Shown one piece after another: positions 24,718-31,770 of a stretch of 64,000 bases of DNA. The notes under the pieces were generated by a model. That model was not told the origin of the DNA and made no database searches. It saw nothing but the letters and a program-made list of their open reading frames with translations. The DNA lies in NCBI RefSeq assembly GCF_000701365.1, contig NZ_JNIK01000013.1, positions 186,001 through 250,000 of the forward strand, written 5' to 3'. This DNA comes from Blastococcus sp. URHD0036. GTDB lineage: Bacteria; Actinomycetota; Actinomycetes; Mycobacteriales; Geodermatophilaceae. The translations under genes and the position numbers were made by a program. Position 1 is the first letter of the stretch, and every line of letters begins with the position of its first letter.

Positions 24718-25107
24718 GTGGAGCCGCACGCACCGCGCGTGCTCGTCGCCGACGACGAGGACGACATCCGCGCCCTGGTGTGCCTGGCGGTCCGCCGGGC
24801 CGGATGCCGGGTCGTCACCGAGGCGGCCGACGGTCCGGCGGCCCTCGACGGCGCCCGGAACACCCTCCCCGACCTCGCGGTCCTCGACGTCTCCATGCCT
24901 GGTGCCACCGGTCTGGAGGTCTGCTCCGCGCTCCGCGCCGATCCGTCGACCGCCGGCGTGCGGGTGCTCCTCCTGTCGGCCGGCGCCTCCCCCGAGGACG
25001 TCGCCCGGGGCCTCGCCTCCGGCGCCGACAGCTACCTGGCCAAGCCGTTCACCGTCGCGGGCCTCGTCGCCCGCGTGCGCGAGCTGGCCGGCGGGGTGCC
25101 GGCATGA
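24718..25107 (+). CDS. Stand-alone response regulator receiver
   Basis: 129 residues, a single CheY-like receiver with no output domain. Seen: acidic pocket Asp12-Asp13, phosphoacceptor Asp57 in VLDVSMPG, Lys109 in YLAKPF. GTG start at 24718. It overlaps the histidine kinase gene by ATGA, so they are a coupled pair. Without an output domain it must act by protein contact or as a phosphate relay; the receiver/Hpt-like protein at 28129 and the OmpR regulator at 31063 are possible partners by proximity. Confidence 0.9.
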   Translation: MEPHAPRVLVADDEDDIRALVCLAVRRAGCRVVTEAADGPAALDGARNTLPDLAVLDVSMPGATGLEVCSALRADPSTAGVRVLLLSAGASPEDVARGLASGADSYLAKPFTVAGLVARVRELAGGVPA

Positions 25108-26366
25108 CCGCCGTCGAGCAGACCCCGGCCACGACGACCGCCGAGATCGACCTGCTGCGGGCCGAGGTGGCCCGCCTCGCCGCCGAGCGCGACGCCCTGC
25201 GCGCGGACATGGAACGCCGCGACGGTGAGCTGGAGACGGCCGGCCGGATGCTCGCCGCCCGCGCCCAGACCATGACCAGCGTCATCGACGCGGTCACCGA
25301 GCAGTCGATCATCGGCACCGACCTCGACGGTGTCGTCCGCGTGTGGAACCCGGGAGCCGAGAAGCTGCTCGGCCTGCCGCGCGCCGACGTCGTCCGCCGC
25401 CGCCTCGTCACCGACTTCCACCTGGCCGACGAGCTGGCCGCCGACGGCGGCGGGCTCGCCGCGCTGGTCCGCGTGGCACAGGCGGAGGGCCGGGACGTCC
25501 GCGACTGGACCTACGTCACCGCTCGCGGCGAGGAGCGCACCGTCTCGGTCGCGGTCACCCCCCGGTCCGACGACTCCGGCGAGCACGCCGGCTGGAACTT
25601 CGTCGCCACCGACATGACGGAGGTGCGGGCGAGCGAGCGGCTCAAGGACCAGTTCGTCAGCCTCATCAGCCACGAGCTGCGCACCCCGCTGAGCTCGATC
25701 CTCGGCTACCTCGAGCTGGTGCTCGACGACCCCGACCAGCCGCTGACCGACGAGCAGCGCTCCCACCTCGGCACGGTCGAGCGCAACGCCCAGCGCCTGC
25801 TCCGCCTGGTCGGCGACCTGCTGTTCACCGCGCAGGTGGAGGCCGGCCGGTTCACCCTCCAGCCCGAGGACGTCGACCTGGCCGCCGTCCTCCGGGGCGC
25901 CGAGGAGACCGCTCGCGTCGCGGCCACCGCGGGCGGCGTCCGGCTGGACCTCGAGCTGCCCGAAGGCGGCCTCGTCGTCCCCGGGGACCCCGTCCGGCTC
26001 GGTCAGGCTTGCGACAACCTCGTCTCCAACGCCGTGAAGTTCACCCCCGCCGGCGGCTGCGTCACGCTCGCCCTGCGGGCCGGCTGGCAGGCGCCCGACG
26101 GGACGACGACCGACGACGAGCGCCCCGGCAGCGCACCGGTCGCCCGGATCTCGGTCACCGACACGGGGTACGGGATCCCGGCCGCCGAGCTCGACCAGCT
26201 CTTCACCCGCTTCTTCCGGGCCTCGACCGCCAAGCGCAACGCCGTGAAGGGCGTCGGTCTCGGGCTGTCGATCACGAAGGCCATCACCACCGCGCACGGC
26301 GGGACCCTGGACGTGACCAGCACCGAGGGCCACGGCACCACGTTCACCCTCACGCTCCCCCGCTGA
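25104..26366 (+). CDS. Soluble PAS-domain sensor histidine kinase
   Basis: 420 residues, no membrane segments. N-terminal coiled coil (about 14-45), PAS domain (about 55-170, TDLDGVVRVWNPGAEKLLG), dimerisation H-box LISHELRTPL with phosphoacceptor His190, then a GHKL ATPase with N-box DNLVSNAVKF, G1 DTGYGIP and G2 GVGLGLSI. It would sense a cytosolic cue through PAS and phosphorylate the adjacent receiver. ATG 25104 overlaps the regulator's TGA. Its stop is the first base set of a nested palindrome (26366-26438). Confidence 0.92.
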   Translation: MTAVEQTPATTTAEIDLLRAEVARLAAERDALRADMERRDGELETAGRMLAARAQTMTSVIDAVTEQSIIGTDLDGVVRVWNPGAEKLLGLPRADVVRRRLVTDFHLADELAADGGGLAALVRVAQAEGRDVRDWTYVTARGEERTVSVAVTPRSDDSGEHAGWNFVATDMTEVRASERLKDQFVSLISHELRTPLSSILGYLELVLDDPDQPLTDEQRSHLGTVERNAQRLLRLVGDLLFTAQVEAGRFTLQPEDVDLAAVLRGAEETARVAATAGGVRLDLELPEGGLVVPGDPVRLGQACDNLVSNAVKFTPAGGCVTLALRAGWQAPDGTTTDDERPGSAPVARISVTDTGYGIPAAELDQLFTRFFRASTAKRNAVKGVGLGLSITKAITTAHGGTLDVTSTEGHGTTFTLTLPR

Positions 26367-26388: not shown

Positions 26389-26426
26389 GCTCGTGCTCTG
26401 CCCACGATGGTGGGCAGAGCACGAGC
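26389..26426 (+). repeat. Palindromic hairpin, same family as 14048-14083; terminator-like
   Basis: A 17-bp perfect stem around GATG, nested within a second 9-bp inverted pair (26366-26374 with 26430-26438). The arm sequence (CTCGTGCTCTGCCCA) differs at few positions from the arm at 14048. It follows the histidine kinase and probably terminates its transcript. Confidence 0.65.
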
Positions 26427-26494: not shown

Positions 26495-26534
26495 CTTGCG
26501 GAAGCCTTGCGGTGAGCGGGCGGGTGGGCTGCGG
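26495..26534 (+). promoter_or_regulatory. Four 11-bp direct repeats, cassette 1
   Basis: Units start at 26495, 26506, 26517 and 26528. The first two are exact CTTGCGG, the others match 5 of 7. The array covers -107 to -68 relative to the ATG at 26602. One-helical-turn spacing is typical of tandem binding by OmpR-family regulators. The remainder of the 235-base intergenic region holds the palindrome above and the leader. Confidence 0.6.
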
Positions 26535-26601
26535 TTGAGATCCCAGAGTCGTTCCTGTCAGCCGGGACACCCCGCCCCGGCCCGCCCCGCAGGAGAACGA
26601 C

Positions 26602-27216
26602 ATGTCCGCTCGCACCCGCAAGGCCACCACCCGCAAGGTCATCGGCTCGCTCGGCGTCCTCGGCGCCGCTGCCGCCGTCGCCGGCCTCGGCACCTTCGGC
26701 ACGTTCACCGACTCGACCACGCCGATCTCCACCGACGTCGCCTCCGGCACCGTGAAGATCAACCTCGCCTCGACCGGCGCGGCCATCCCCGCCACCACGG
26801 CGAACTTCGTGCCCGGCGACTCCATGACCCGCGCGGTCACCCTGAGCAACTCGGGCACCTCGGCGCTGTCCTCGGTCACCCTCGGCACCACGGCGACCGT
26901 CTCCAGCGTCCTCAACACCGACACGACCAACGGCCTGCAGCTCAACGTCAAGTCCTGCACGGTGCCGTGGACCCAGGGCGGTACCGCCACTGCCCCGACC
27001 TACACCTGCACCGGCGGCACGGTCACCGACCTCGGCAGCACCGCCGTCGTCTCCAACCGCACCCTGGCCGGCCTCAACAGCCTGAACCCCGGCGGCGTGG
27101 ACAACCTGGTCTTCTCGATCAGCCTGCCGACGGCCGCCGACAACGGCTTCCAGGGCAAGACCTCCACGTTCAGCCTCGTCTTCACCGGTACGCAGCGCGC
27201 CGGCTCCGCCCGCTGA
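26602..27216 (+). CDS. TasA/camelysin-like secreted protein, copy 1 (SipW-dependent)
   Basis: 204 residues. N-terminus: basic SARTRKATTRKV, hydrophobic core GSLGVLGAAAAVAGLGTFG, then TFTDSTTPIS, the A/G-x-F-x-D type junction of SipW-dependent signal peptides. The mature part is strand-rich, Thr/Ser-rich, with PGDSMTRAVTLSNSGTSALSSVTL (typical of TasA-like beta proteins) and a Cys pair (SCTVPW and YTCTGG). TasA relatives polymerise into extracellular fibres of biofilm matrix. The gene is followed by a SipW-type signal peptidase, its expected processing enzyme. Fibre formation here is inference. Copy 2 lies at 28979. Confidence 0.83.
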   Translation: MSARTRKATTRKVIGSLGVLGAAAAVAGLGTFGTFTDSTTPISTDVASGTVKINLASTGAAIPATTANFVPGDSMTRAVTLSNSGTSALSSVTLGTTATVSSVLNTDTTNGLQLNVKSCTVPWTQGGTATAPTYTCTGGTVTDLGSTAVVSNRTLAGLNSLNPGGVDNLVFSISLPTAADNGFQGKTSTFSLVFTGTQRAGSAR

Positions 27217-27308
27217 CCCGGCGCCCGCCCAGCGGGCGCCCGCACCCAGGTGAACGGCCGGCAGTCCCGGCCGGAACGACGAGATCGACGAGATCGACGG
27301 AGAAGACC

Positions 27309-27950
27309 ATGACCGCAGTACTCCCCGCCCCGCGGACGGCACAGGCGCCCTCCGCGGGCGGGCCGGCCACAGGCCGCCCGGCCCGCCGCCGGCGCCGCCC
27401 GGTGCGCGCGATCCTCCGGTTCACCGGCCGCTGGAGCCTCCGCATGCTGGTGTGCACCGCAGTGCTCTCGTTCCTCGGACTGGCCGTCGGGCCGCACGTC
27501 CTGGACTACCGCACCATGACGATGCTCACCGGCAGCATGGCCCCGAGCATCGAGCCCGGCGACGTCGTCGTCTCCACGCCGCTGAGCGTCTCCGACGTCG
27601 AGGTCGGCATGGTCATCACCTACCACATCCCGATCGACGACCACCGCGTCGTCACCCACCGCGTCATCGAGGTCGACCGCACCGCCGACGGCACCGTGTC
27701 CGTCCGGACCCAGGGCGACGCCAACGACGCACCCGACCCCTGGACCGCCGTCCTCACCGGCGACACCGCCTACCAGGTGCAGGCCGTCGTCCCGGAGATC
27801 GGCAACGTCATCACCGCGCTCCGCAACGACACCCTGAGCACCCTGTTCGTGCAGCTGCTGCCGGTCGCCCTCGGCGTCTGCATGCTGGTCTCCATCTGGC
27901 GGCCGGGCCGGGAAGACGACGACACCACCACCGCCGGAGGAGCCCGATGA
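27309..27950 (+). CDS. SipW-type (ER-type) signal peptidase I, copy 1
   Basis: 213 residues from ATG 27309. Basic N-terminus, first membrane segment (about 46-64), catalytic Ser76 in LTGSMAPSIEPGD, and His117 in VVTHRVIEV in place of the Lys used by ordinary bacterial enzymes: the Ser/His dyad of SipW and eukaryotic Sec11. A second membrane segment (about 180-197) ends the protein. It would process the neighbouring TasA-like proteins. Its stop overlaps the next start (ATGA). Bases around 27485-27770 are nearly identical to copy 2 (29810-30095). Confidence 0.9.
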   Translation: MTAVLPAPRTAQAPSAGGPATGRPARRRRRPVRAILRFTGRWSLRMLVCTAVLSFLGLAVGPHVLDYRTMTMLTGSMAPSIEPGDVVVSTPLSVSDVEVGMVITYHIPIDDHRVVTHRVIEVDRTADGTVSVRTQGDANDAPDPWTAVLTGDTAYQVQAVVPEIGNVITALRNDTLSTLFVQLLPVALGVCMLVSIWRPGREDDDTTTAGGAR

Positions 27951-28135
27951 CCGCCCACACGGACCAGCCGCGGTCGCGGGCACTGCCCCTCGCCGGCCTG
28001 CTCGTCGCCCTGGTGCTCACCAGCGCACTGCCCGCCTGGGCCGGTGCCGTCTCCGCCCGCCCCGACCAGCCGGCCTCCGCCTGCGCGCAGGACACGGCCG
28101 GTTCCGGCGACACGACGGAGTCGGGCCGGTGCTGA
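27947..28135 (+). CDS. Small secreted protein
   Basis: 62 residues. ATG 27947 overlaps the sipW stop and its TGA overlaps the GTG of the next gene, so both junctions argue for real, coupled translation. Signal peptide with hydrophobic core ALPLAGLLVALVLTSALPAWA and an AWA cleavage site, leaving about 27 residues rich in Ser, Asp and Thr with two cysteines (SACAQD and C-terminal C62). I do not recognise it. Absent from cassette 2. Confidence 0.7.
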   Translation: MTAHTDQPRSRALPLAGLLVALVLTSALPAWAGAVSARPDQPASACAQDTAGSGDTTESGRC

Positions 28136-28794
28136 CCGCCCTGGTCGTCGGGGCCGACGGCGCCGACCGCCTGCAGACCGCCGCTCTCCTCGCGGCCGCC
28201 GGCTGGCGGGTCCGGGAGGCCGACGGACTCCGCGCGGCCCTCGCCGTCGCCCGCTCCACCGAGCTGGACCTCGTGGTGGCCGACCTGGACCTGCCCGACG
28301 GCGACGGCCCGGCGCTGCTGCGCCGGTTGCGGCTCACCGGGTGCCGGGCCCACCTCCTGGGCACCGCCGGGGAACTCACCGCCGAGGTGCGGTCCGCCGG
28401 CAGCGCCGCGGGGGCGCTCGCCGTCCTCCCGGCACCAGTCGACCCCGGTGTGCTGCTGCGGTTCCTGCTCGGCCGGGTCTCCGGGCCGGCCGGCGTGGCC
28501 GACGAGGACCTGACGGACGACATGACGGACGACGGGGTGGACGACGACCTGGCCGGCCGCCTGCAGGAGCTCTACGCCGGCGCACTGCCGGGTCGCCTGG
28601 AGGCGATCGACGCCGGTGCCCGCTCCGGGGACGCGACCGCCCTCGCGTCGGCCTCGGGCACCCTCGCCGGGACCAGCGCCCAGCTGGGGCACCCCGAGGT
28701 GGCGGAGCTGTGCCGCGCGATCGCGGCCGACGCCCGCCGGGGGGTCCTCGCGCACGAGCTGGTGGACCGGCTGCTCGACCTCGCGACCGCCTGA
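28129..28794 (+). CDS. Degenerate receiver plus Hpt-like protein
   Basis: 221 residues from GTG 28129. Residues 1-115 look like a response-regulator receiver: LDLVVADLDLPDGDG keeps an acceptor-like Asp52, but the acidic pocket is GADGAD and the conserved Lys-Pro is replaced by PAPVDP. Residues 140-221 form a four-helix Hpt-like domain in which the phospho-accepting His of H-x-L-K-G is replaced by Gly (SGTLAGTSAQLGH). Phosphotransfer through it is therefore doubtful; it may act as a binding or scaffold protein in control of the fibre cassettes. Last gene of cassette 1. Confidence 0.75.
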   Translation: MLTALVVGADGADRLQTAALLAAAGWRVREADGLRAALAVARSTELDLVVADLDLPDGDGPALLRRLRLTGCRAHLLGTAGELTAEVRSAGSAAGALAVLPAPVDPGVLLRFLLGRVSGPAGVADEDLTDDMTDDGVDDDLAGRLQELYAGALPGRLEAIDAGARSGDATALASASGTLAGTSAQLGHPEVAELCRAIAADARRGVLAHELVDRLLDLATA

Positions 28795-28801
28795 GGTCGT
28801 C

Positions 28802-28847
28802 ACCGTGCAGAACCGCCATTCCGCACCGTGCAGAACCGCCATTCCGC
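28802..28847. repeat. 23-bp perfect tandem repeat with internal dyad
   Basis: Two identical 23-base units, each containing GTGCAGAA, six bases, TTCCGCAC (arms complementary at 7 of 8 positions). They sit between cassette 1 and the promoter array of cassette 2 and could form alternative hairpins, serve as protein sites, or be remnants of a dispersed repeat. Confidence 0.7.
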
Positions 28848-28871
28848 ACAGGTGGGTACGGGGTCCGTCTT

Positions 28872-28911
28872 CTTGAGGTGATCTTGCGGATCAGTGGCGG
28901 GACCCCTGCGG
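28872..28911 (+). promoter_or_regulatory. Four 11-bp direct repeats, cassette 2
   Basis: Units at 28872 (CTTGAGG), 28883 (CTTGCGG), 28894 (GTGGCGG) and 28905 (CCTGCGG), exactly 11 apart. The array spans -107 to -68 from the ATG at 28979, the same position as in cassette 1, and the following 58-base leader is nearly the same in both. Confidence 0.6.
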
Positions 28912-28978
28912 TTGGGCTCGCAGAGTCGTTCCTGTCAGCCGGGACACCCCGCCCCGGCCCGCCCCGCAGGAGAACGAC

Positions 28979-29608
28979 ATGTCCGCTCGCACCCGCAAGG
29001 CCACCAGCCGCAAGGTCATCGGCTCGCTCGGCGTCCTCGGCGCCGCTGCCGCCGTCGCCGGCCTCGGCACCTTCGGCACGTTCACCGACTCCACGACGCC
29101 GATCTCGACCGCGGTCGCCTCCGGCACGGTGAACATCGACCTCAGCACCCCCGGCGCCGCGATCCCGGCCACCACCGGCAACTTCGTGCCCGGCGACTCG
29201 ATGACCCGCGCGGTCACGCTGGTCAACAGCGGCACGTCGGCCCTGTCCTCGGTCACCCTGGGCACCACGGCCACCGTCTCCAGCGTCCTGAACACCGACG
29301 CCAACGGCCTGCAGCTGAACGTCAAGTCCTGCACGGTGCCGTGGACCCAGGGCGGCACGGCCACCGCGCCGACCTACACCTGCGGCGGCACGGTCACCGA
29401 CTTCGGCACCACCGCAGCCGTCTCCAACCGGACCCTCGCGGGCCTCAAGAGCCTGAACCCGGTCGACGCGGCCGTCCCCGGCTCGGGCACCGACTACCTG
29501 ACCTTCACGATCTCGCTGCCCACCACGGCCGGCGACAACCTCCAGGGCAAGTCCTCGACGCTCAGCCTCGTCTTCACCGGTACCCAGCGCGCCGCCAGCG
29601 CCCGCTGA
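28979..29608 (+). CDS. TasA/camelysin-like secreted protein, copy 2 (SipW-dependent)
   Basis: 209 residues, paralogue of the protein at 26602, with near-identical signal region, the same TFTDSTTPIS junction, the PGDSMTRAVTLVNSG segment and the same Cys pair (KSCTVPW, YTCGG). Differences cluster in the C-terminal third, where copy 2 has an insertion (NPVDAAVPGSGTDYLTF). Two subunits of one fibre, or a main and a minor subunit, would explain the pair. Followed after 34 bases by its own SipW-type peptidase. Confidence 0.83.
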   Translation: MSARTRKATSRKVIGSLGVLGAAAAVAGLGTFGTFTDSTTPISTAVASGTVNIDLSTPGAAIPATTGNFVPGDSMTRAVTLVNSGTSALSSVTLGTTATVSSVLNTDANGLQLNVKSCTVPWTQGGTATAPTYTCGGTVTDFGTTAAVSNRTLAGLKSLNPVDAAVPGSGTDYLTFTISLPTTAGDNLQGKSSTLSLVFTGTQRAASAR

Positions 29609-29642
29609 CCTCGATCGCCGACGAGACCGGAGACCCCCCGCC

Positions 29643-30275
29643 ATGACCGCCGTCCTCCCCGCCCGCGCCCCGGGGGCAGCCGCCCCGCTGCCCCCGGCCG
29701 CGGAGGCCGCTCGCACCGGCCTGCTCCGCGCGTGCGCCCGCTTCGCCGGCCGCTGGAGCCTCCGCGCCCTCGTCGCCGCGGCGGTCCTGGCCTTCGTCGG
29801 CCTGGCCCTCGGCCCGCACGTCCTGGACTACCGCACCATGACGATGCTCACCGGCAGCATGGCCCCGAACATCGAGCCCGGCGACGTCGTCGTCTCCACG
29901 CCGCTGGACGTCTCCGACGTCGAGGTCGGCATGGTGATCACCTACCACATCCCGATCGACGACCACCGCGTCGTCACCCACCGCGTCATCGAGGTCGACC
30001 ACACCGCCGACGGCACCGTCTCCGTCCGCACCCAGGGCGACGCCAACGACGCACCCGACCCCTGGACCGCCGTCCTCACCGGCGACACCGCCTGGCAGAT
30101 GCGGGCCGTCGTCCCGGAGATCGGCAACGCCATCACCGCGCTGCGCGACCCGGTCGTCAACAAGGCCCTCGTCTACGGCGCCCCCGCCCTGCTGGCCGGC
30201 TGGATGCTGCTGAGCATCTGGCAGCCGGTCCGGGACGAGGACGACGAGGACGACGCCGAGGCCGACCGGGCCTGA
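29643..30275 (+). CDS. SipW-type (ER-type) signal peptidase I, copy 2
   Basis: 210 residues. Catalytic Ser72 in LTGSMAPNIEPGD and His113 in VVTHRVIEV; N-terminal membrane segment about 42-58 and a C-terminal one (ALVYGAPALLAGWMLLSIW). The first 40 residues differ from copy 1, while the catalytic core is almost identical in DNA as well as protein, which points to recent duplication or gene conversion. The acidic tail (DEDDEDDAEAD) replaces the tail of copy 1. Confidence 0.9.
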   Translation: MTAVLPARAPGAAAPLPPAAEAARTGLLRACARFAGRWSLRALVAAAVLAFVGLALGPHVLDYRTMTMLTGSMAPNIEPGDVVVSTPLDVSDVEVGMVITYHIPIDDHRVVTHRVIEVDHTADGTVSVRTQGDANDAPDPWTAVLTGDTAWQMRAVVPEIGNAITALRDPVVNKALVYGAPALLAGWMLLSIWQPVRDEDDEDDAEADRA

Positions 30276-30287
30276 CCCGCCCCGGGT

Positions 30288-30327
30288 CTTGCGGATCTCT
30301 TGCGGAAGGCGCGAGGGAACCGCGAGG
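30288..30327 (+). promoter_or_regulatory. Four 11-bp direct repeats, third promoter
   Basis: Units at 30288 and 30299 (both CTTGCGG) and at 30310 and 30321 (both CGCGAGG), 11 apart, covering -113 to -74 from the ATG at 30401. Same layout as the two cassette promoters although the leader after it is different. Confidence 0.55.
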
Positions 30328-30400
30328 TCCACCCCGCACAGTCAGAGATGTTCCAGCAACCCCCGCCGGGACCACCCCGCACCAGAGAGGAGACCGAGCC

Positions 30401-30997
30401 ATGACCCGCACCCGCCGTTGCGTGCTCCTGCTCGTCCTCACCGTCGCCGTCGTCGTCGGGGCCTCGCTGCCCGCGAACGCGCTGTTCTCCGACACCGCGG
30501 CGCCGGTCACCAGGCCCTCGATCACCACCGCGGTCGTCACCGGGCCGTCCAACGTCAAGGTCGACACCTCGTGCGTCACGACGACGACGGTGATCAGGCG
30601 CGTCTACACGATGTACTCGGACGTGCTGCTGAACAGCAGCACCACCACCACCAGCGCCGTCAGCACCAGCAACGTCGAGAGCAACACCACCGTCCGCACA
30701 GACGGCAGCCCGGCGGCGGGCCAGTACACGGTGACCCAGACGATCGCGGACACGACGCTGTATGCGACTGCCACCTGGAAGGCCAGCCAGACACCCGGCA
30801 TCACGGGCTACCAGATGACCGCCTTCCTCTCCAACGGCACGGCCTACGCGATGGGGAACGCCGCGACCAACGCCACGAAGTTCACCGGCACCTACGACGC
30901 CTCGGTGGTCAACTACCGCCCGGTGCTGTCCATGGTCACGCTGACCAGCTACGGCTGGACGGCGCCCGGGACCATGAGCAACGTCGTCACCTGCTGA
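30401..30997 (+). CDS. Secreted Thr/Ser-rich protein, third candidate SipW substrate
   Basis: 198 residues from ATG 30401 with GAGAGGAG upstream. Signal peptide RRCVLLLVLTVAVVVGASLPANA followed by LFSDTAAPV, an F-S-D junction typical of SipW-dependent precursors. The mature part is rich in Thr, Ser and Asn (SSTTTTSAVSTSNVESNTT), strand-like, with two cysteines (DTSCVTT and the C-terminal Cys). No named family recognised. It shares the 11-bp repeat promoter with the two TasA-like cassettes, so it is probably made and exported with them. Ends at a perfect palindromic terminator. Confidence 0.75.
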   Translation: MTRTRRCVLLLVLTVAVVVGASLPANALFSDTAAPVTRPSITTAVVTGPSNVKVDTSCVTTTTVIRRVYTMYSDVLLNSSTTTTSAVSTSNVESNTTVRTDGSPAAGQYTVTQTIADTTLYATATWKASQTPGITGYQMTAFLSNGTAYAMGNAATNATKFTGTYDASVVNYRPVLSMVTLTSYGWTAPGTMSNVVTC

Positions 30998-31014
30998 CGT
31001 AGCCGCCGAACGCG

Positions 31015-31048
31015 GAGGGGCCCGGACCTGATCAGGTCCGGGCCCCTC
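31015..31048. terminator. Bidirectional terminator, perfect 34-nt palindrome
   Basis: Two 17-base arms centred on TGATCA with no mismatch, between the convergent genes ending at 30997 and 31063. Confidence 0.85.
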
Positions 31049-31062
31049 GCGCGTGCGCTGGT

Positions 31063-31770
31063 CTAGGCAGCGACGAGCCGGTACCCGACGCCGCGGACGG
31101 TCTTGATCTCCGGGGAGCTGAGCCCGGCGGCCTGCAGCTTGCGGCGCAGGTTGGACATGTGCGCCTCGACGAGGCGGACGCTGCCCTCCCAGTCGGTCTG
31201 CCACACCTCGCGCAGCAGCGTCTCGCGCTGCAGGACCCGGCCGGGCCGGGACGCCAGGGCGGCGAGCAGGTCGAACTCGGTGCGGGTCAGGTCGACGACG
31301 GTGCCGTCGACGCGGACCTCGCGGCTGTCCTCGTCCACCTCGAGCTCGGCGAGCCGGCGGACGTGCTCCTCGACGGTCGTGGCGGGCTCGGGGGCGGCGG
31401 GGACGCGCGGGCGGCGCAGCATCACCTGCACCCGGGCGACCAGCTCGCGCGGGGAGAACGGCTTGGCCATGTACCCGTCGGCGCCGACGGCCAGCCCGAT
31501 GAGCAGGTCGACCTCCTCGGCGCGCGCGGTCAGCATGAGCACGTAGCACTCGGACTCGGCGCGGATCTGGCGGCACACCTCGGTGCCGTCGGCGTCGGGC
31601 AGCCCGAGGTCCAGGACGACGACGTCGGGAGCCGACCGTCGGACCTCCTCGAGCGCCTCGGCACCCGTGCCCACGGCGCGCACGTCCATCCCCGCGCGGG
31701 TGAGCACGGTGACGACGAGCTCGCGGATCTCGTCGGTGTCCTCGACGACCAGCACGGACTGCTCGGCCAC
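31063..31770 (-). CDS. OmpR/PhoB-family response regulator
   Basis: 235 residues. Receiver: Asp11 and Glu10 in the acidic pocket, phosphoacceptor Asp54 in VLDLGLPDADG, Lys103 in YMAKPF. C-terminal winged helix (about 140-235): TRTEFDLLAALASRPGRVLQRETLLREVW, then VRLVEAHMSNLRRKL and VRGVGYRLV. ATG 31770. No kinase adjoins; the nearest is the PAS kinase at 25104. Its position at the end of the TasA-like locus, and the 11-bp direct repeats at the three promoters there, make it the best candidate to control them. Confidence 0.92.
   Translation of the reverse strand: MAEQSVLVVEDTDEIRELVVTVLTRAGMDVRAVGTGAEALEEVRRSAPDVVVLDLGLPDADGTEVCRQIRAESECYVLMLTARAEEVDLLIGLAVGADGYMAKPFSPRELVARVQVMLRRPRVPAAPEPATTVEEHVRRLAELEVDEDSREVRVDGTVVDLTRTEFDLLAALASRPGRVLQRETLLREVWQTDWEGSVRLVEAHMSNLRRKLQAAGLSSPEIKTVRGVGYRLVAA

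Follow-up and report, generated by a model that had tools for sequence, protein, structure and literature searches.

A TasA/SipW-type locus with a repeated promoter element and its own two-component proteins in Blastococcus sp. URHD0036

The window considered here is a stretch of 64,000 nucleotides (contig C12, positions 186001-250000) from the 5.18 Mb genome of Blastococcus sp. URHD0036, an actinobacterium of soil and rock, of the family Geodermatophilaceae. It contains two tandem cassettes, each encoding a TasA-like exported protein and a Ser/His (SipW-type) signal peptidase, together with a third exported protein (sec3) with an F-S-D junction, a 62-residue exported protein, a degenerate receiver-Hpt protein and an OmpR-family response regulator (RR). 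A first-pass annotation, made from the letters alone, had read this set as a dedicated matrix or fibre export system, and all these genes are indeed at the locus, those of both cassettes above their family cut-offs. The limits that it drew were too small, as two genes upstream belong to the module: a stand-alone receiver of 129 amino acids (aa) (24718-25107; PF00072, 84.7 bits), which is kept upstream of the kinase in relatives, and a PAS histidine kinase of 420 aa (25104-26366; HisKA, HATPase_c and PAS above cut-off), both on the plus strand, as are all the other genes and elements of the locus except the RR gene. We regard that interpretation as partly supported: it names the right kind of system, takes its extent too narrowly and says nothing on control. 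Our own reading, to which we give a probability of roughly two in three, is that these genes form a regulon for extracellular fibres of the TasA type, under two-component control of its own, by the RR.

TasA-like proteins and SipW-type peptidases

TasA1 (204 aa; 26602-27216) and TasA2 (209 aa; 28979-29608) score 46.0 and 38.5 bits against the Pfam family PF12389, whose cut-off is 22.5. An AlphaFold model of TasA2, built from 32 homologues (mean pLDDT 78.0, pTM 0.70), shows one compact β-domain, preceded by a segment that is disordered in the monomer (residues 6-46, pLDDT below 50). The best fold match of this model is TasA of Bacillus subtilis (Foldseek E 1.8e-4); VIA-align gives Z 10.5 with the TasA structure 5OF2, over 129 residues at 3.0 Å, and at most 7.8 with other folds. 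The profile of the 32 homologues also matches, in two stretches, a chain of the TasA fibre (8AUR; E 5.2e-6); a search with the single sequence did not find TasA. The TasA-like identity first proposed is therefore borne out by both the family cut-off and the fold. The count of two subunits is right for the window and too low for the genome, which holds four TasA genes of this clade, the two further ones lying elsewhere behind the same promoter element.

Within the disordered segment, Phe35, which we take to pair with F29 of B. subtilis TasA, is invariant in 32/32 aligned homologues, as is Gln203, which the profile alignment pairs with a Gln of 8AUR; the alignment also holds two invariant Cys. 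In the parts of these papers that were available, residues 28-38 of B. subtilis TasA are given as the donor strand (PMC9674648), and F29 and Q232 are listed among the most conserved residues of its pocket (PMC10151520). A conserved N-terminal segment that is disordered in the monomer and bears an invariant Phe35 thus fits a donor strand, and this, together with a best fold match to a fibre-forming protein, makes it unlikely that the products are a SipW-processed surface coat or adhesin, with subunits monomeric or flat on the wall and the module regulated alike. What speaks for such a coat is the single compact β-domain of the model, in which single chains were modelled, and that, to our knowledge, not all PF12389 members have been shown to polymerise. 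PF12389 is itself named "Camelysin metallo-endopeptidase", from which one might take both proteins for secreted metallopeptidases of the camelysin type. Because neither TasA1 nor TasA2 has a single His, and hence no HExxH, the peptidase name of the family does not apply to them; the idea is refuted for a His-dependent zinc site, and we give it practically no credence.

The products of sipW1 (213 aa; 27309-27950) and sipW2 (210 aa; 29643-30275) score 64.4 and 65.0 bits against TIGR02228 (NCBIfam), whose cut-off is 51.85. Ser72, His113, Asp133 and Asp139 are invariant in 18/18 aligned peptidases, one of which comes from a different SipW locus, and the dyad is Ser-His in place of Ser-Lys, so that the placing of Ser/His peptidases beside TasA in the first-pass annotation stands. 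Against the Bacillus SipW equivalog NF046067 the two proteins reach 54 and 55 bits, the cut-off being 190. Predicted Ser-His catalysis and the passing of the family cut-off are shared with archaeal and endoplasmic reticulum-type signal peptidase I (TIGR02228, SEC11); unlike those, the peptidases here are encoded beside their presumed substrate. NCBI models exist for SipW-dependent exported proteins in actinobacteria, and therefore TasA/SipW pairs in actinobacteria are not new as such; the exported proteins of this locus have no match to these models at E ≤0.1. The genome has a second SipW-type locus (L071; G000:C13:10000-27000). As read from its open reading frames (ORFs), this one encodes a sensor kinase and a regulator of the LuxR/NarL type, beside a sortase-like ORF and SipW-like exported proteins other than those here.

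The third exported protein, sec3 (198 aa; 30401-30997), has no Pfam or NCBIfam family at E ≤0.1. In 13 aligned homologues, read by eye, a hydrophobic N-terminus is followed by an A-x-A-like junction before F-S-D, and Cys58 and Cys198 are invariant in the same alignment. Given this junction, SipW dependence is least sure for sec3. Its profile matches fibronectin over positions 109-165 (E 1e-7), FN3 chains being the best sequence matches, and the fold search returns single FN3 domains with probability 1.00 and a target TM-score of up to 0.67 over about 80 columns; none of these fold matches reaches E ≤0.001, the top rows are mostly FN3 or Ig-like, and the pTM of the whole model is only 0.55. TapA is not among the fold and sequence matches listed for sec3. 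In the available part of PMC10151520, TapA is described as a V-set immunoglobulin fold with a disulfide. That sec3 takes the part of TapA would be a guess, made from the modelled shape and the position of the gene.

Duplication of the cassette

The duplication seen at first pass is real, for the cassettes share 300-nt blocks at 88-89% identity. In a comparison by 60-nt blocks, the middle blocks of sipW1 and sipW2 are 93-98% identical and the end blocks 58-71%, and the same middle blocks give 85-98% in orthologous pairs with strain TF02A-26. The first two blocks of tasA1 and tasA2 are 98 and 96% identical, as compared with 81-90% for their orthologues, and the last two full blocks 51 and 75%. 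The two tasA genes of TF02A-26 are 99.8% identical, which may be an assembly error, and those of CPCC 205250 78.5%. We read the cassettes as the product of a single tandem duplication whose copies gene conversion has kept alike in patches; selection on the peptidase core may add to this.

Tandem copies that are homogenised in patches need not have separate roles. The alternative is that the cassettes differ in function, one TasA being the fibre subunit and the other the starter, each with its own SipW. Divergence in the late blocks of the mature TasA domain would agree with this, as would the suggestion, in the available part of PMC10151520, that one of the two camelysins of B. cereus has TapA's role. 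We find it unlikely, since the leader and the peptidase core are alike between the copies, the tasA pair of TF02A-26 is nearly identical (with the reservation given above) and most relatives carry a single cassette.

Between sipW1 and the second cassette lie the genes of the 62-aa exported protein (27947-28135), an ORF that three related strains also have, at 50, 65 and 79%, and of the receiver-Hpt protein (221 aa; 28129-28794; PF00072, 35.2 bits, above cut-off). A palindrome between the kinase and the tasA1 promoter (TGCTCTGCCCAC..GTGGGCAGAGCA; 26394-26421) recurs at 15 genomic places at ≤3 mismatches, the reversed control giving 0; it is a dispersed repeat, possibly with the role of a terminator. 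Another one, perfect and 34 nt long (31015-31048), stands between the convergent sec3 and RR genes and is probably a two-way terminator.

The promoter element and the response regulator

The promoter element consists of four heptamers with the consensus CTTGCGG, at a period of 11 bp, followed at fixed spacing by CAGAGT, a hexamer that resembles a -10 sequence. Elements 1 (26495-26549) and 2 (28872-28926) lie 53 bp before tasA1 and tasA2 and carry CAGAGT; element 3 (30288-30342), the weakest, lies 59 bp before sec3 and has CACAGT. A matrix trained on 58 related loci, with five own-genus or near-strain loci left out, finds exactly these three positive matches in the window, at 66.9, 62.1 and 32.4 bits; the next score is -29.3, and the best over 15 simulated windows is -15.5. 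In the whole genome, the pattern TTGCGG-N4-CTTGCGG-N31-CAGAGT has 8 matches at ≤3 mismatches, while its reversal has 1. Of the 8, four belong to TasA genes, one to sec3 and two to hairpin loci, the last being probably due to chance. The match at C18:299841 has no heptamers 3 and 4. The first two heptamers on their own are not enriched, either in the window (12 matches at ≤3 mismatches, 15 expected) or in the genome (74 at ≤2 mismatches, 147 for the reversed pattern), and we dropped them as a marker, since only the full element stands out; an exact match at C11:411917 was set aside, as it has just the two heptamers and no CAGAGT.

The element is found in relatives as well. Upstream of TasA, the first two heptamers occur at ≤1 mismatch in 31 of the 37 loci that could be examined among 40 TasA matches, in 30 of these between -102 and -128 relative to the inferred start; in the shifted one the TasA match begins late, and the six loci that lack them hold divergent homologues of 26-41% identity. 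A second set comprises 64 named loci from outside the Micrococcaceae and 15 from within; it overlaps the 112-genome set described below and is not independent of it, and one of its named records (L191), labelled Bacillus sp. by the depositor, is marked unverified. The full element is present at ≤3 mismatches in 63 of those 64 loci, L200 being the exception, and it precedes 12 of 13 lone TasA genes; in-gene controls have minima of 6-10 mismatches. The 17 kb of the other SipW locus (C13) hold no element at ≤5 mismatches.

The RR (235 aa; 31063-31770, minus strand) joins a receiver (PF00072, 99.1 bits) to a Trans_reg_C domain (PF00486, 93.0 bits), both above cut-off. Among 112 genomes of the family, TasA was found in 77, an RR orthologue (E ≤1e-80, a threshold of our choosing) in 84 and the element in 94. 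Genomes with the RR average 3.32 element matches and those without it 0.46 (reversed control, 0.76 and 0.89), and at least one match is present in 82/84 of the former and 12/28 of the latter (reversed control, 51 and 14), counts that, like their P-values, ignore the relatedness of the genomes. The same gap is seen within genus g4 (3.00 versus 0.20) and within g6 (2.87 versus 0.62). The 11 genomes that have the RR and no TasA average 2.18 matches, the control being 0.73, and the 4 with a TasA match and no RR average 0.50.

According to the part of PMC4168254 that was available, the consensus sites of WalR/VicR and PhoB also consist of direct repeats at 11 bp. The element shares these repeats and a winged-helix-turn-helix regulator with regulation of the PhoB/WalR type; it differs in having four half-sites, not two, and the heptamer CTTGCGG. 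Control of the element-bearing TasA genes by the RR has good, though indirect, support, and the OmpR-type regulator that the earlier reading placed at the locus is supported as a dedicated one, with an element that tracks it over genomes. That another regulator reads the element, the RR merely travelling with the module, is in our estimate improbable. Binding of the RR to the element is a proposal, relatedness is ignored in the counts, the RR's own promoter region in the window has no element, and related-looking arrays occur in Micrococcaceae that have no close RR nearby, all of which would suit such a regulator. It would have to account for the element matches in genomes with the RR and no TasA, for the background level in RR-less genomes, within g4 and g6 too, and for a repeat layout that fits binding by the OmpR family.

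The Micrococcaceae arrays lie upstream of tasA in Arthrobacter/Paenarthrobacter (L220, L231, L233, L234, L242 and L243); by eye, they are CTTGAGG-type repeats at about 11 bp, with a CACAGT/CAAAGT/CAGAGT..TTCTTGTCAGCC stretch like that of the locus here. They hint at an older common promoter design. In a literature search for CTTGCGG together with response regulator, the occurrences are primers in the paper that, among the matches listed, has the most of them.

The module in relatives and its proposed working

A synteny search, which the first-pass annotation had put forward as a check, finds the module to be the usual arrangement in the family: kinase, tasA, sipW and RR genes lie within 4 kb in 43 of the 64 named loci, with the receiver-Hpt gene in 42 and sec3 in 36 of the 43. 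The remaining loci are 13 lone TasA genes and 8 partial ones, several at contig ends. The kinase is present in 49/64, and the RR, found in 46 loci, is 69-100% identical to that of the window, at least 83% in 44 of them. In the earlier set of 37 loci, which includes lone-TasA and divergent loci, the four genes are together in 15. Papers on TasA in Geodermatophilaceae did not turn up in the open-licence literature, a weak absence given that only open-licence papers were covered; among the matches listed for actinobacterial TasA/SipW or camelysin, no title concerns such a locus, and the available part of PMC9686282, on Geodermatophilaceae, has no occurrence of "tasa".

The receiver-Hpt protein had been called degenerate, rightly so, as here its receiver has lost the acid pocket and the Lys, and its Hpt domain the His. 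Its Hpt score is 23.7 bits, just below the cut-off of 24.6, and the phospho-histidine site is Gly. The acceptor is His in 18/36 motif matches from the named loci and Y, F, N, Q, D or T in the other 18, with conserved flanks, which the search pattern requires, so that it misses the own-genus form. Relatives such as L077 keep the phospho-sites in the first receiver-Hpt copy; here, both are lost. A classic four-step His-Asp-His-Asp phosphorelay was rejected as a general scheme, since neither the protein here nor half of the motif matches have the Hpt His.

The element also precedes other genes. In 8 of 20 further element-bearing regions, picked by hand (L147-L153, L164), it stands before a small "DLHDADLD" ORF, which carries LRD(V/I)(D/E)DLHDADLD and resembles that part of the linked receiver-Hpt protein which runs up to its Hpt domain. 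In five (L154-L158, from five genomes of genus g12), an ORF of 46-49 aa follows 52 nt behind the element, its product having the motif GDTAP.GATP and a hydrophobic stretch; four (L159-L161, L165) have larger exported-looking proteins, L162 has a 64-aa ORF, and L163 has no short ORF. The own-genome region L146 holds the two hairpin loci, with no ORF behind the element (5882 and 4349, both minus strand; G000:C12:436381 and 434848). The two lie in tandem, are non-coding and about 110 nt long, and contain GGGGGA repeats and a long perfect hairpin. The fold z is -3.40 for one of them, and the genus mates G002 and G001 have relatives with the element at one and two places, respectively. Six element-bearing loci have no Rfam match at E ≤1. 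The hairpin loci are perhaps an RR-controlled small RNA.

In the fibre regulon that we propose, the kinase would phosphorylate the RR, directly or through the receivers, and the RR would bind the heptamers, probably as two dimers, and activate. TasA precursors would be exported by Sec, and SipW would cleave them immediately ahead of the conserved T-F-T-D segment; the N-terminal strand set free in this way would fill the groove of the next subunit to build the fibre, which the FN3 protein sec3 may start, cap or anchor. The tandem cassette copies would mainly give extra dose, kept alike in patches by gene conversion.

Among the closest known systems is tapA-sipW-tasA of B. subtilis, which likewise has, in one locus, a TasA-family subunit with the TasA fold and a donor-strand-like N-terminus, a SipW-type peptidase and an exported partner protein. 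It differs from the locus here in that the latter has its own kinase, receivers and OmpR-family RR, the four-heptamer element, two invariant Cys in the subunit, an FN3-like partner and several TasA genes in trans, and falls below the TasA and SipW equivalog cut-offs. In B. cereus sipW-calY1-bc_1280-calY2, as described in the available part of PMC10151520, two camelysins also lie near one SipW locus; there, one SipW serves two camelysins, whereas here each cassette has its own peptidase and signalling genes are present.

Several points count against the reading as a whole. Fibre formation and SipW dependence are inferred from genes and predicted folds. TasA1 and TasA2 score 22.3 and 20.1 bits against the TasA equivalog NF046066 (NCBIfam), far from its cut-off of 450, and the better stretch of the 8AUR match has an i-E of only 0.0013. 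Selection instead of conversion could explain the likeness of the conserved peptidase core. On the side of control, the gap within genus g3 is small (1.00 versus 0.60 for genomes with and without the RR), 2 of the 84 RR genomes have no element match, and relatedness stays out of the counts. Moreover, an RR or kinase match lies nearby in 0/15 Micrococcaceae TasA loci, the best RR in six Micrococcaceae genomes with TasA being 45-52% identical; TasA/SipW, therefore, do not need control by such an RR.

A wider scheme is possible, and we offer it tentatively, with the odds against it. One RR and the four-heptamer element might run a family-wide exported-fibre regulon in trans, comprising several TasA paralogues, an FN3-type starter that has TapA's part and no kinship with it, exported microproteins and also, in the genus of this strain, RNAs that form hairpins. 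The receiver-Hpt protein, its phospho-histidine repeatedly lost and the residues around it conserved, might have changed from a phosphotransfer step to a partner-binding switch, on which the element-controlled DLHDADLD proteins would feed back.

TasA fibres have so far been worked out in Bacillus. If the fibre regulon proposed here is true, it would offer, across an actinobacterial family, a second model of how fibres are controlled, with wiring independent of the first. What sets it above one more TasA/SipW locus is the regulon, in which a single clear DNA element tracks a single RR. The element would then be a motif by which the regulon can be found in other genomes of the family, and the repeated loss of the Hpt His in an otherwise conserved module is a natural test of what Hpt proteins do without phosphotransfer.

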